A DNA stretch of 41,099 bases from positions 1-41,099 of IMG/VR virus record IMGVR_UViG_3300036766_000148; one strand, written 5' to 3'. Origin of the DNA: a virus. A model generated the notes under the pieces. It worked only from the letters and a program-made list of their open reading frames with translations. It did no database searches and had not been told where the DNA came from. A program made the translations under genes and the position numbers. Position 1 is the first letter of the stretch. Each line of letters opens with the position of its first letter. Below, piece after piece: positions 3,759 through 29,265 of the stretch.

Positions 3759-4068
3759 ATATAAGGAAGTTTGGGAAGTCTTTATGTCTAACCAGAAAGA
3801 ACCTTATATTATGAATGAGTTTGAGTATGCAGTTTTTGAAAATGCTGTTACTAAAGGAATGAAAGGGGTTATTAGTTTTGATTGGGGAATGGTTAATACT
3901 TCATTTTTTGTATCTTCTTATAGGAAATCTCGCAGTTTAAAAGAAGCCTGGATGCCAACTCAGATTGAAGCACCAAAAGAAAGAGAACTTACCCCAGAAG
4001 AAAAAGACAAAGCCCAAAAAAGACTTGATGAGATTAGAGCTAGGTTAAAAATAAAGTTAAGTAAATAA
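3712..4068 (+). CDS. Conserved-looking protein of unknown function in the replication region
   Basis: 118 residues, overlapping the end of the initiator gene by 47 bp in another frame, with GGGAGG 11 nt upstream. The middle has FEYAVFENAVTKGMKGVISFDWGMVNTSFFVSSYRKSRSLKEAWMP. The C-terminus is a highly charged helix (about 88-118, LTPEEKDKAQKRLDEIRARL). It has no membrane helix or Cys motif. Location suggests a replication accessory protein, but I do not recognise the family. Confidence 0.6.
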   Translation: MLDQQLMPEDLAKDYKYKEVWEVFMSNQKEPYIMNEFEYAVFENAVTKGMKGVISFDWGMVNTSFFVSSYRKSRSLKEAWMPTQIEAPKERELTPEEKDKAQKRLDEIRARLKIKLSK

Positions 4069-22968: not shown

Positions 22969-23193
22969 ATGGAAAAGAAATTTTTGATTTTAGGGATTCA
23001 CCCATTACTAGATGAGGCTAATAATATAGTTAAAGAGTATGATTCAGCCAGGGTCAGAATGTATGTCGGTGATAAAGAATTTGATGAAGATTTTGCACTT
23101 CCAGAACTTCCCCCAGGAGTACCACCTACACAAGAGGTATTTGAATTTTATCTTAAAGAGAATATATTAAAAAGAATGGAGGAGTTAAAATGA
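22969..23193 (+). CDS. Small protein of unknown function
   Basis: 74 residues with a beta-type N-terminus (KFLILGIHPLLDEA, ARVRMYVGDKEFDEDF), a Pro-rich stretch (LPELPPGVPPTQ) and a C-terminal helix. It is followed by an ATGA-overlapping gene with a GGAG ribosome site. No family recognised. Confidence 0.5.
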   Translation: MEKKFLILGIHPLLDEANNIVKEYDSARVRMYVGDKEFDEDFALPELPPGVPPTQEVFEFYLKENILKRMEELK

Positions 23194-23555
23194 ACCCACA
23201 AAATCCAATAATGTCACATTTAGCTGGTGATAAACCAGAAGTTGGTCAAGAGCATACAGAAGTAAGGATTAATATGGCTAAACTTCCTAAACCTGCAAAT
23301 ATTACCGGGATTGCCGGGGAAAAATGCAATAACTGTGGGGGTTATGGATTTACAGTTGGTATGAATGGAAAGCATATTGATTGTGCTCAATGTGAGAAAA
23401 CAGGTGTCAAACTTCCGACTATTCGTGAACTTCAAACTCAAATTAGTGAATTAAAATTAGATTTGTCAGCTTTAAGGAAAGCTATTTTAGATGCTATCCC
23501 TCATGCGCAAATTGTCGATCCTAGAGATGTAGGGGCAAAGGAGGTAGTCGAATGA
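23190..23555 (+). CDS. DnaJ-type zinc-knuckle protein
   Basis: 121 residues. CNNCGGYGF (Cys47, Cys50) and CAQCEKTG (Cys67, Cys70) form one CxxCxGxG-type zinc finger, as in DnaJ. The C-terminal part is a coiled coil (about 80-105, ELQTQISELKLDLSALRKAIL). It is ATGA-coupled on both sides and has a GGAGG site. The next gene is the homing endonuclease. Confidence 0.6.
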   Translation: MNPQNPIMSHLAGDKPEVGQEHTEVRINMAKLPKPANITGIAGEKCNNCGGYGFTVGMNGKHIDCAQCEKTGVKLPTIRELQTQISELKLDLSALRKAILDAIPHAQIVDPRDVGAKEVVE

Positions 23556-24037
23556 GTAGGCAAATCTTTATAGTTCCTGAATTAGAACATGATAACATTG
23601 TTTATATGGCTGGTTTAATAGATGGTGAAGGATGTTTTTATATTGCTCACAAAATCAAAAATATGTTAAAATCTACCTATTCTCCACAATTTAAGATTGT
23701 TTTGACGAATCAAGAAGTAATTGTTTGGATGGCTGATAAACTTAAAAGATCATATACACATATATTAGGTAGTTCTGATACAAACCAACATGAAACTTAT
23801 ATCGTAAGAATTAGTGATAGAATTGGACTTATAAAATTTATTGAACAGATTTTACCATATTTAATTGTTAAAAAAGATATTGCACAAACTATTTTAGATT
23901 TTTGTAAATCACGAGTAAATAATTGGGACATAAACAATTCAAGAAAAATGGCATCTACATATAGTAAAATAGAATTAGATTTATTTAATAAAACAAAAAC
24001 ACTAAACCAAGTAGGTTTTATGAAAGGGGGATACTAA
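23552..24037 (+). CDS. LAGLIDADG-type homing endonuclease
   Basis: 161 residues with one motif, MAGLIDGEGCFYI (19-31, the metal-binding acid being Asp24 or Glu26), then the usual beta strands (QFKIVLTNQEVIVWMADKL, TYIVRISDRIGLIKFI). Single-motif enzymes of this size act as homodimers. The N-terminus is MSRQ and, just after the stop, the next gene begins with ISRQ in different codons. So the element seems to have split an MSRQ-starting gene and restored it behind itself. The codon use is more AT-rich than in the neighbours. Confidence 0.85.
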   Translation: MSRQIFIVPELEHDNIVYMAGLIDGEGCFYIAHKIKNMLKSTYSPQFKIVLTNQEVIVWMADKLKRSYTHILGSSDTNQHETYIVRISDRIGLIKFIEQILPYLIVKKDIAQTILDFCKSRVNNWDINNSRKMASTYSKIELDLFNKTKTLNQVGFMKGGY

Positions 24038-24038
24038 A

Positions 24039-24602
24039 ATTTCACGACAATATTGGGAAGAATTAATTGCTTGGGCTACTGCTTCTGGTACTGCTGTGGC
24101 TTCATCAACTACTGAAACTATTTTATATCCAAATATAACTATCCCTGCTAATTACATGCAAGATGGCCGTACTATTCACATTGTTTATATTGGTCAGTAT
24201 TCAGAATTAGGCTCAGGTACAGTTACTAAAATATTCAATGTTAGATGGGGTGGAGTTGCAGGAACTGTTATTTGTAAGACAGGTACAATTACCACACTTA
24301 TTAGTGCTGCAGCATGGCTTGAGATAGTTGAGGTCTGGATAACAACTCGCTCAAATGGTTCCTCAGGCACTGTAATGGGCAATGGATATGCGATGGTATT
24401 CGGGGGCACTGCCCCCACAGTAGGGTCTGCGACAGGTGCCCCAGCAGTCTCTCCATTAACTGCAGGAGGCCAAGTTACACCTGCTACAGCGTCACTTGAT
24501 TTAACAGCAGATACAGCTTTGGCTATTACTACTACTCACGGTTCAAATAGTGCAAGCGATACTGAGACAGGACTTCAATACACCCTCGAATCCTGGAATT
24601 AA
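24039..24602 (+). CDS. Small structural protein, predicted ATT start
   Basis: 187 residues if begun at ATT 24039. The frame is open as (I/M)SRQYWEELIAWATASGTAV before the first GTG at 24096, with AAAGGGGG ending 8 nt upstream of the ATT, so the usual 24096 start would waste a good ribosome site and a sensible N-terminus. The rest is Thr/Gly/Ala-rich beta structure (TILYPNITIPANYMQDGRTI, IFNVRWGGVAG, YAMVFGG) as in phage head or tail decoration proteins. It lies behind the homing endonuclease. Confidence 0.65.
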   Translation: MSRQYWEELIAWATASGTAVASSTTETILYPNITIPANYMQDGRTIHIVYIGQYSELGSGTVTKIFNVRWGGVAGTVICKTGTITTLISAAAWLEIVEVWITTRSNGSSGTVMGNGYAMVFGGTAPTVGSATGAPAVSPLTAGGQVTPATASLDLTADTALAITTTHGSNSASDTETGLQYTLESWN

Positions 24603-27087: not shown

Positions 27088-29265
27088 ATGTCATTCAAAG
27101 CCCTACGATCACAATATATAAACCTCACTAAGCAGGGGGCTTCATCTGCAATTCGCGATATTCTTGGTCTTGCTAAAATCCAAGCTGCAGCTACTGTTAA
27201 AACTATTTTAGGTAGATCTACTATTACTAAGTTAATTTCAGGTCTTTATGATGACTTTAATGATAATAGTTTAGATGCTACAAAATGGAGTTTATTTGCA
27301 GGGAGTGAAACAAATAATAGGATTGAATTAAGTCCTAATGTTGAAGCTGAACTTATTAGTCTTACAACAAAACCTTGGAATATTGCTGATGGTTCTCTTC
27401 ATGTAGAGATACCCCAAATTGGAAGTATTACTCATAGTGATTCTCAATTTAAAGTTTCTATTATTAATATTAGTAATTCAGATTGGGCAGCATATTTTAT
27501 TTTTGCAAGTAATGGAGTTACTGCTTATAAGTTAGAAAATGGAGTTGAAACAAGTGTGGCAACTGATACTTATAATGCCACTAATTATAGATATATAAGA
27601 TTTAGAACAAGTGGGACTACAGTTTATTTTGAATATTCAGCAGATAGCCAAACTTGGAATGAATTAGGGCATTATACAACCTCAGACTCATTTTGGTTTG
27701 CAGGAATATTTTTTGATATTTATGATTTAGATGAATCAGGAAGCCCAGCTGTTTCATATATTGATAATGTAAATACTTATAAAACTTTAAAAACAATCCA
27801 AGGATTAGCACGTATTACAAAAACTACTGCTCAAACAATACTTGGATTAGCCAGAATTACAGCCACAACTGCACGCACAATTCTTGGTAAAGCAGATATT
27901 CGAGTTACTACTACTAAAACTATTTTAGGACTTTCAAGAATCAGGGTTACAGTTGCAAGAACAATATTAGGGTTAGCCAGAATAACAAAAACTACTGCAC
28001 AGACTATTCTAGGTAAGGCCAGAATAACTGCAACTACTACCAAGACAATATTAGGTAAAGCTGATATTAGAGTTACAACAACTAAAACAATCTTAGGTAT
28101 TGCAAATCTAACTGTTACTGCAACTAAAACTATCTTGGGTAAAGCACGTATTACTGCAACCACTATTAAAACTATTCTTGGATTGTCACGCATTACAGTC
28201 ACAACTATTAAGACTATTTTAGGTAAAGCAAGAATCCGAACTACTGTTAGTCAAGTTATATTAGGTATTGCAAGAATCCAAAAGGTTGTTAATAAAACTA
28301 TTTTAGGGTTAGCACGTATTACTGCGACAACTGTAAAAACTATATTAGGTAAAGCCAGAGTTCAGAAAGTTGTTAATCAAACTATTTTAGGTTTAACAAG
28401 AATACAAAAAGTAGTTATTGCCACAATTCAAGGACTTGCGCGCATAACAGTTTCAACTACTAAAACCATACTTGGTAAAGCAAGAATAATGGTTACAGTT
28501 GCCAGGACCATTCTTGGTAAAGCTCGTATTCAGAAAGTAGTAAACCAAACTGTGCAGGGGCTTGCACGGATAAGAGTTACAGTTACAAAAACTATTCTTG
28601 GTTTAGCCAGAATCCAAAAAATAGTCAATCAAACAATATTAGGTTTGGCCAGAATCAGAGTTACAGTAACCCAGGTGATTCTTGGTAAGGCCAGAATCAT
28701 GGTTAGTGTTACAAAAGATATTTTAGGTATTGCCAGAATCCGGGTAATAGTTTCACAAACCATTTTAGGTTTGGCAAGAATAACTATAACTGTTAATCAA
28801 ACAATTCAAGGGTTGGCAAGGATAACAGTTTCAACTACTAAAAATATTTTAGGTATATCAAGAATTCAAGAAGTTGTATCAAAAGATATTTTAGGTAAGG
28901 CAAAAATAAATATATCAACAGAAGCTAACAAAGATATATTAGGGTTGGCCAGAATCCAAAGAATAATCTCAGTTACTATTCAAGGTTTGGCCAGGATACA
29001 GAAAGCAGTTAATAGAATTATTTTAGGTAAGGCTGCAGTTAGAGATGTTACAAACCGATTGATACTTGGTAAAGCCAGAATAAAGAGAAGAAAAGTTAAA
29101 AGTATTTATGTTGATATTAAAAGTCTTAACCCGGTAATTAATATTGTTAGCCAAAAAGGAAGTTTGCAAATTATGTCTTTGAAACCTACTATTAGTATTA
29201 AAGATTTGAAACCTCAAATTGGAATACAAAAGTTAAATAAAGTAATTGGAATTAAAAAACTATAA
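27088..29265 (+). CDS. Lectin-like domain plus 31-copy 14-residue repeat protein
   Basis: 725 residues. After two N-terminal repeat-like units (about 24-48), residues about 50-235 form a concanavalin-like beta-sandwich (YDDFNDNSLDATKWSLF, GSLHVEIPQ, YRYIRFRTSGTTVYFEYSAD). Residues 236-671 are 31 tandem units of 14 residues (one of 16) with consensus T-I-L-G-K/L-A-R-I followed by six variable T/V/K/Q residues. The last 54 residues carry other short beta repeats. The repeat is probably a long beta-solenoid shaft. It lies among fibre genes, so a stalked adhesin is likely. Confidence 0.75.
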   Translation: MSFKALRSQYINLTKQGASSAIRDILGLAKIQAAATVKTILGRSTITKLISGLYDDFNDNSLDATKWSLFAGSETNNRIELSPNVEAELISLTTKPWNIADGSLHVEIPQIGSITHSDSQFKVSIINISNSDWAAYFIFASNGVTAYKLENGVETSVATDTYNATNYRYIRFRTSGTTVYFEYSADSQTWNELGHYTTSDSFWFAGIFFDIYDLDESGSPAVSYIDNVNTYKTLKTIQGLARITKTTAQTILGLARITATTARTILGKADIRVTTTKTILGLSRIRVTVARTILGLARITKTTAQTILGKARITATTTKTILGKADIRVTTTKTILGIANLTVTATKTILGKARITATTIKTILGLSRITVTTIKTILGKARIRTTVSQVILGIARIQKVVNKTILGLARITATTVKTILGKARVQKVVNQTILGLTRIQKVVIATIQGLARITVSTTKTILGKARIMVTVARTILGKARIQKVVNQTVQGLARIRVTVTKTILGLARIQKIVNQTILGLARIRVTVTQVILGKARIMVSVTKDILGIARIRVIVSQTILGLARITITVNQTIQGLARITVSTTKNILGISRIQEVVSKDILGKAKINISTEANKDILGLARIQRIISVTIQGLARIQKAVNRIILGKAAVRDVTNRLILGKARIKRRKVKSIYVDIKSLNPVINIVSQKGSLQIMSLKPTISIKDLKPQIGIQKLNKVIGIKKL
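27793..29100 (+). repeat. 31 tandem 42-bp coding repeats
   Basis: Each unit codes TILGxARI plus six residues. Copies differ greatly at synonymous positions (Ile as ATT, ATA, ATC; Gly as GGT, GGA, GGG), so the array is old or under protein-level selection and is not a fresh slippage expansion. Identical protein units such as 1/5-type TKTTAQ and 3/7-type ADIRVTTTK show past duplication of multi-unit blocks. Confidence 0.9.

Follow-up and report, generated by a model that had tools for sequence, protein, structure and literature searches.

A LAGLIDADG endonuclease gene that appears to have captured the 5′ end of a phage tail gene and left it with an ATT start

We describe a viral LAGLIDADG endonuclease gene that is likely to represent a home-and-rescue element, having captured the 5′ end of the tail gene in which it resides. 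It lies in a 41,099-nucleotide stretch of viral DNA, here called the window (IMG/VR record IMGVR_UViG_3300036766_000148, positions 1-41,099), whose sequence we inspected directly around positions 23,194-24,602. An insertion seen against empty alleles, two copies of the tail-gene start, recoding of one of them, a new ribosome-binding site, a recurrent ATT start codon and scars of the element in other lineages are all evident in the sequences. Homing, DNA cleavage and initiation at ATT, on the other hand, are inferred.

All of the features in question lie on the plus strand. The gene upstream of the endonuclease (23190-23555) encodes a protein with a CxxC zinc-finger-like motif, recognized by sequence inspection, and its TGA stop overlaps the endonuclease ATG in the sequence ATGA. 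This overlap is likely to be the original junction between the zinc-finger-like gene and the tail gene, tight joins of this kind being typical for adjacent phage genes. The Shine-Dalgarno sequence AAAGGAGG (23537-23544) would thus be the original gene's ribosome site, which today drives the endonuclease. The first four codons of the endonuclease, ATG AGT AGG CAA (MSRQ; 23552-23563), form the 5′ copy of the target-gene start. The 161-residue ORF that they open (23552-24037) ends with a TAA at 24035-24037, preceded by a C-terminal module, LNQVGFMKGGY (24002-24034), whose KGG codons form a downstream ribosome site. This Shine-Dalgarno-like sequence, AAAGGGGG (24023-24030), lies inside the endonuclease ORF and appears to serve the rescued gene: after an 8-nt spacer, and with a single base separating the endonuclease TAA from the ATT, the tail gene begins at 24039 with ATT TCA CGA CAA TAT TGG, the first four codons of which are the 3′ copy of the start (I/M-SRQ; 24039-24050). 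The rescued gene (24039-24602) encodes 187 residues. The previous stop in its frame is a TGA at 24021, its first standard start is GTG 24096, and no ATG, GTG or TTG occurs in that frame between the two. A pseudo-palindrome at the insertion point was not significant (P 0.19).

The two copies of the start agree with each other at only 6 of 12 bases. The nearest homologue of the target, at locus L002 (87% identity), begins ATG AGT AGA CAA TAT TGG, and this native start is matched at 11 of 12 bases by the window's 5′ copy but at only 7 of 12 by the 3′ copy. Because it matches the native start far better, we take the 5′ copy to be the original and the 3′ copy to be the re-spelled one. A preliminary description, made before any database search, had pointed to the same four residues flanking the endonuclease and proposed that the element carries a recoded copy of the lost 5′ end. 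Direct inspection confirmed the layout, and the recoded copy held as well, with the nuance that the 5′ copy keeps the original spelling and it is the 3′ copy that has been re-spelled.

Searches for homologues of the target gene returned 22 viral loci at first and 62 later, together with a contig assigned to a Patescibacteria bin, amounting to 46 distinct sequences with the window included; the target gene alone had no match among annotated phages. An ATG start is found in 36 of the 46, usually as ATG-SRQ-[Y/F]W without an endonuclease. The SRQ residues are kept in all 17 of the aligned homologues, in which S, R, Q, E7, W11 and T13 are invariant. At L003, a zinc-finger ORF passes straight into MSRQYW, the very arrangement that the endonuclease interrupts in the window. 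L002 is not the exact pre-insertion allele, since its two upstream genes stand in the other order. Nevertheless, the criterion of a presence/absence polymorphism is met: L002 and many other relatives lack the endonuclease at the tail-gene site, and its full-length form was found there in the window only, with searches of the other target loci and records finding none. The preliminary description had placed the insertion just behind the original start, with the original signals reused, and had proposed looking in relatives without the endonuclease for an uninterrupted start; these relatives do carry ATG-SRQ-[YF]W uninterrupted, which supports that placement.

An AlphaFold2 model of the target protein is all-beta (pLDDT 80) and most closely resembles, in fold, uncharacterised phage proteins (appendage or tail-spike proteins among them) and TNF-like proteins or legume lectins. 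Since the adjoining genes match tail families, the target is likely to be a tail-appendage protein. Some homologues depart from the usual start. At L015, L016, L020, L071 and L073, SRQ is preceded by Asn and is in frame with an upstream ORF, and the tail domain therefore appears to be fused to a longer protein. L018 (on a record shared with L059) has an ATA start at 3998-4000 (ATA-SRQFW) behind AGGAG and without an endonuclease scar; it could be a resistant allele, or simply another tolerated AUN start.

The inserted ORF is likely to encode a LAGLIDADG homing endonuclease, as judged by motif, profile and fold, with site-specific cleavage and homing being inferences for which there are no biochemical data. 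It carries the single motif YMAGLIDGEG (23603-23632), matches the Pfam family LAGLIDADG_1 (PF00961; E 1.2e-7, 33 bits against a cut-off of 23.1) and matches PHROG 5046 (E 2e-21). An AlphaFold2 model (pLDDT 86) predicts the alpha-beta-beta-alpha fold of I-CreI, and the best PDB matches are I-CreI and I-MsoI (TM 0.6-0.7). These two enzymes share the single-motif fold with the window enzyme, which is predicted to act as a homodimer. Unlike it, however, they are intron-encoded, and sequence identity is about 20% or below. An Rfam search of the window returned no family at the gathering threshold and no intron match. Given this result and the ORF's own stop codon, the gene belongs neither to a recognised intron element nor to an intein. 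Neither the endonuclease nor the upstream gene, when used as the only query, retrieved a viral relative.

Support for a mobile origin of the ATT start comes from two further loci, L021 and L032, at which the tail gene also begins with ATT and the endonuclease is missing. The L021 gene starts ggaggg-tatctaa-ATT-AGC-AGG-CAA-TTT-TGG, with GGAGGG as its Shine-Dalgarno sequence and a TAA stop as the codon directly before ATT. The L032 gene starts aggagga-tattcaa-ATT-AGT-CGT-CAG-TTT-TGG, with AGGAGGA as its Shine-Dalgarno sequence; a TAG lies 15 bases upstream of the ATT and no standard start intervenes. At both loci, the ATT is preceded by a short ORF that ends like the window endonuclease (NxVG...GGY), the modules being LNQVGFMKGGY in the window, PNKVGIKEGGYLN in L021 and LNRVGIPVELGGYSN in L032. 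Among all fetched loci, the window, L021 and L032 are the only ones with an ATT start, and they are also the only ones in which the NxVG...GGY module lies directly upstream. The chance of such a coincidence for 3 of 46 distinct sequences is about 7e-5 (1 in 15,180, by our own arithmetic). Two border-pattern scans of 2.9 million viral contigs turned up no further real case; the scan for ATT-AGY-MGN-CAR-TTY-TGG returned 21 stretches, of which only those in L021 and L032 belong to the real target gene. In a tree of the 46 sequences, the three ATT alleles are placed on different branches and each is adjacent to an ATG allele, with support for the L021 and L032 pairings being moderate only.

The matches to these remnants are short (about 10-14 residues). 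Ends of the type [KR]x[LIV]N..G are nevertheless found in 21 of 71 tails of the endonuclease's relatives, compared with 2.5% of shuffled tails, and K/R-x-L/I/V-N-x-x-G-type ends occur at other sites in RBC11 (RQMNKRGL), KIL1 (MNLNKKGVSHG) and Faust (MRELNTKGVGKI). Because the module is thus, by alignment as well, an ordinary endonuclease C-terminus, the short ORFs at L021 and L032 are best taken as 3′ scars of deleted endonucleases. The L021 scar ORF still opens with MSRQ, so that both copies of the start are kept (TCA AGA CAA versus AGC AGG CAA), whereas L032 has no 5′ copy. The L021 MSRQ lies behind a TATACT box, placed like the TATAAT before the normal ATG of a relative, L061. Since the two boxes match in place, the position of the L021 box fits an old start that has not moved and a gene that has shifted to the border of the element. 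A separate HNH-endonuclease-like ORF (CxxC...VDHINGGG) occupies 3569-3922 of L021, leaving about 20 nt between its end and the MSRQ scar; we infer that it is likely to be a second selfish gene adjoining the same site.

That the window's tail gene starts at ATT and apparently still works is likely, though this is inferred from sequence and initiation has not been measured. Compared with L002, codons 1-19 show nine synonymous and two amino-acid codon differences, a pattern shared by the rest of the gene. This excess of synonymous change indicates that the codons before GTG 24096 are under purifying selection at the protein level. Taken as criteria for an AUU-initiated gene, the lack of a standard start, a strong Shine-Dalgarno sequence at proper spacing and coding conservation from the ATT onward are all met. 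The ATT start had already been proposed in the preliminary description, which named initiation at GTG 24096 as a result that would refute it. That result is opposed by the pattern of codons 1-19 and by L021 and L032, and the ATT recurs in two independent remnant-bearing alleles; actual initiation there remains an inference, as does the proposed loss of the target site through recoding.

Our proposed explanation is that a free-standing endonuclease gene, with neither intron nor intein, inserted right after codon 4 of the tail gene (ATG-AGT-AGG-CAA) and would be expressed from the ribosome site and ATG belonging to that gene. The 3′ end of the element would supply a Shine-Dalgarno sequence and the synonymous start copy ATT-TCA-CGA-CAA, joined to what remains of the gene, and because of these the tail protein would still be made, from ATT. 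The enzyme is inferred to cut alleles without the element, either at the insertion point or close to it, repair would copy the whole element along with its border, and the re-spelling, including the change of ATG to ATT, would block re-cutting and shield the carrier. In other lineages, the endonuclease core would later have been deleted, with its C-terminal codons, the Shine-Dalgarno sequence and the ATT start remaining. We propose that the 3′ border is retained after such deletions because the tail gene depends on it.

The arrangement is not confined to this tail gene, a point that goes beyond the preliminary description. In Stenotrophomonas phage StenR_269 (GenBank OR838459), a LAGLIDADG ORF distantly related to that of the window separates the scaffolding gene from the major capsid gene. 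It is preceded by a stub reading ATG TCT TTT AGT GGT ATG CAC TTC TCC TAA (MSFSGMHFS), and the capsid gene starts with the re-spelled ATG AGT TTC TCG GGT ATG CAA TAC GGG (MSFSGMQYG), its Shine-Dalgarno sequence being encoded in the last codons of the endonuclease. In the relatives L193 and L195, the capsid start is uninterrupted. As in the window, therefore, a duplicated, re-spelled gene start is combined with a Shine-Dalgarno sequence at the 3′ end of the endonuclease. In StenR_269, however, the original start has become a nine-codon stub closed by a stop, the endonuclease does not borrow that start but has one of its own, the restored gene begins with ATG, and the two endonucleases are only about 25% identical. 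As judged by a text search, the endonuclease goes unmentioned in the StenR_269 genome paper (PMC10747016).

The frequency of start capture was assessed by an anchored comparison of the start peptides around 81 LAGLIDADG ORFs, which replaced an all-frames search for peptide duplications that had no power. Of about 6,480 mismatched pairs, 21 (0.3%) had three or more leading identities and none had four, whereas the only real pairs to share at least three were those of the window (three) and StenR_269 (five). Because so few mismatched pairs reach three identities, the SRQ match in the window exceeds chance. Start capture is thus rare, yet not unique, being found at 2 of 81 LAGLIDADG loci; among named phages, the LAGLIDADG loci of RBC11, RHph_N3_13, KIL1, BaboJay, Samisti12 and Faust showed no start duplication. 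A bolder reading, towards which the balance tips only slightly, is that a class of phage endonucleases spreads by capturing the 5′ ends of essential structural genes and leaves scars behind. Such enzymes would cut at a conserved start and provide a ribosome site together with a recoded start, in some cases opened by a non-standard codon that destroys the target; because the gene comes to depend on its 3′ border, the element could never be deleted in full and scars would be left.

Several other explanations need to be considered. The one that survives best concerns the ATT codon only. We suggest that ATT is possibly part of the destruction of the target that protects the carrier, which is an inference. 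Alternatively, the capture may be real and ATT unrelated to site protection, having arisen from reading-frame overlap at the border and/or as a weak start; we judge this to fall a little short of an even prospect. In its favor, L021 and L032 share ...AAT TAG / ATT AG(Y), in which AATTAG combines the TAG stop of the scar ORF with the ATT start of the gene, and this overlap constrains the third position of the start codon, since only a T there yields a stop in that frame. Moreover, AUU starts with a strong Shine-Dalgarno sequence attenuate translation in S. aureus (PMC13009471), and because this combination is a documented weak start, output of the tail protein may conceivably be lowered. In the window, however, TAA ends the ORF one base before the ATT and the serine codon is TCA; the overlap is therefore not needed there, yet ATT persists.

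A less favored alternative is that the GGY mini-ORF is an ancient leader peptide preceding an ATT-initiated gene, to which an endonuclease was fused later. L021 and L032 do have the mini-ORF without an endonuclease, but we consider this unlikely because KxLNxxG is the usual C-terminus of related endonucleases elsewhere and because the three ATT alleles are scattered among ATG alleles. Very little speaks for a tail gene that starts at GTG 24096, or that has decayed into a pseudogene, with I-SRQ as a relic. Although this GTG is its first standard in-frame start, codons 1-19 show the purifying pattern, S, R, Q, E7, W11 and T13 are invariant, and at L021 and L032 no further standard start is reached until inside or past the most conserved block, such that the conserved domain would be lost. 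It is just as improbable that +1 frameshifting or translational bypassing yields a fusion of the tail protein to the endonuclease or mini-ORF, without any initiation at ATT. All three upstream ORFs do stop within one codon of the ATT, with the tail gene in the +1 frame, but TAC TAA A, TAT CTA A and TAT TCA A share no slippery sequence and allow no +1 P-site re-pairing, and the strong Shine-Dalgarno sequence at 7-8 nt spacing indicates initiation; an inspection for slippery or take-off/landing codons found no re-pairing option common to TACTAAA, TATCTAAA and TATTCAAA.

LAGLIDADG genes frequently reside in introns. An unrecognised self-splicing intron that carries the ORF and joins its exons in RNA would suit an insertion within a conserved codon block, but it is practically ruled out by the lack of an Rfam match in the window, by a 3′ border that re-encodes SRQ (redundant under splicing), by borders that misfit group I (U at the 5′ site, G at the intron end) and group II (GUGYG...AY) introns, and by an L021 remnant of only about 55 nt. 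Stop-codon reassignment was also considered and rejected: TGA ends 22 of 66 window ORFs, and TAA (L021) and TAG (L032) lie upstream in frame.

Some other features of these genomes were recorded in passing. A TATAAT begins 11-13 nt before the ATG of many window genes (1274, 4112, 19260, 22969, 24622, 29853 and 39231), and the target gene of L061 is preceded in this way too. As the window genes so preceded mostly lack a Shine-Dalgarno sequence, leaderless transcripts are a possibility. Successive tail genes end in recurring C-terminal tags common to different contigs, such as VGNGMSRSE(V/L)AS and RPxPFxPGLAR (window 26267 and 27043; L002 5743; L032 4805 and 6172). A 725-residue ORF at 27088-29265 of the window contains many degenerate 14-residue repeats (42-bp units, xxTILGLARIxxT).

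The closest known parallels to the home-and-rescue element are the mobile ORFs (mORFs) of fungal mitochondria, for example in Allomyces macrogynus atp6 and Glomus atp6, atp9, cox2 and nad3, which carry gene ends and provide a replacement 3′ gene end that is divergent in bases but conserved in protein (PMC3630166). Like the window element, they combine an endonuclease ORF (LAGLIDADG or GIY-YIG) with a duplicate of one end of the host gene, which takes the place of the native end and preserves the protein sequence. Taken as the criterion for such elements, an endonuclease ORF beside a synonymously diverged gene-end duplicate is present for SRQ in the window and L021 and for MSFSGM in StenR_269. 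The fungal elements, however, capture the 3′ (carboxy-terminal) end of a mitochondrial gene, whereas the window element captures the 5′ end of a phage gene and must for that reason supply a new ribosome site and start codon. Capture of a 5′ end by a phage endonuclease was not found in the open-access literature that we searched (most subscription papers were outside its scope), although fungal 3′-end capture was. The free-standing endonucleases of T4-like phages (seg, mob) occupy positions between genes and cleave at distances of hundreds to thousands of bp (PMC2988022). They resemble the window element in lacking an intron or intein, in their insertion at gene borders and in their overlapping ORFs, but the window element is inserted inside a coding start. 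By functional analogy only, engineered home-and-rescue gene drives, a synthetic CRISPR system in Drosophila (PMC7968924), likewise place a nuclease within a target gene and rescue that gene.

The case illustrates how a selfish endonuclease that resides in neither an intron nor an intein could occupy a coding region without loss of the gene, by bringing the replaced start along. In this respect, the element seems to do in nature what home-and-rescue drives have been engineered to do, and to mirror at the 5′ end what the fungal elements do at the 3′ end. Its predicted scars are an endonuclease C-terminus, a ribosome site and an odd start, which gene callers miss because they reject ATT. The element also offers an explanation, amenable to testing, of why ATT recurs as a start codon in phages.
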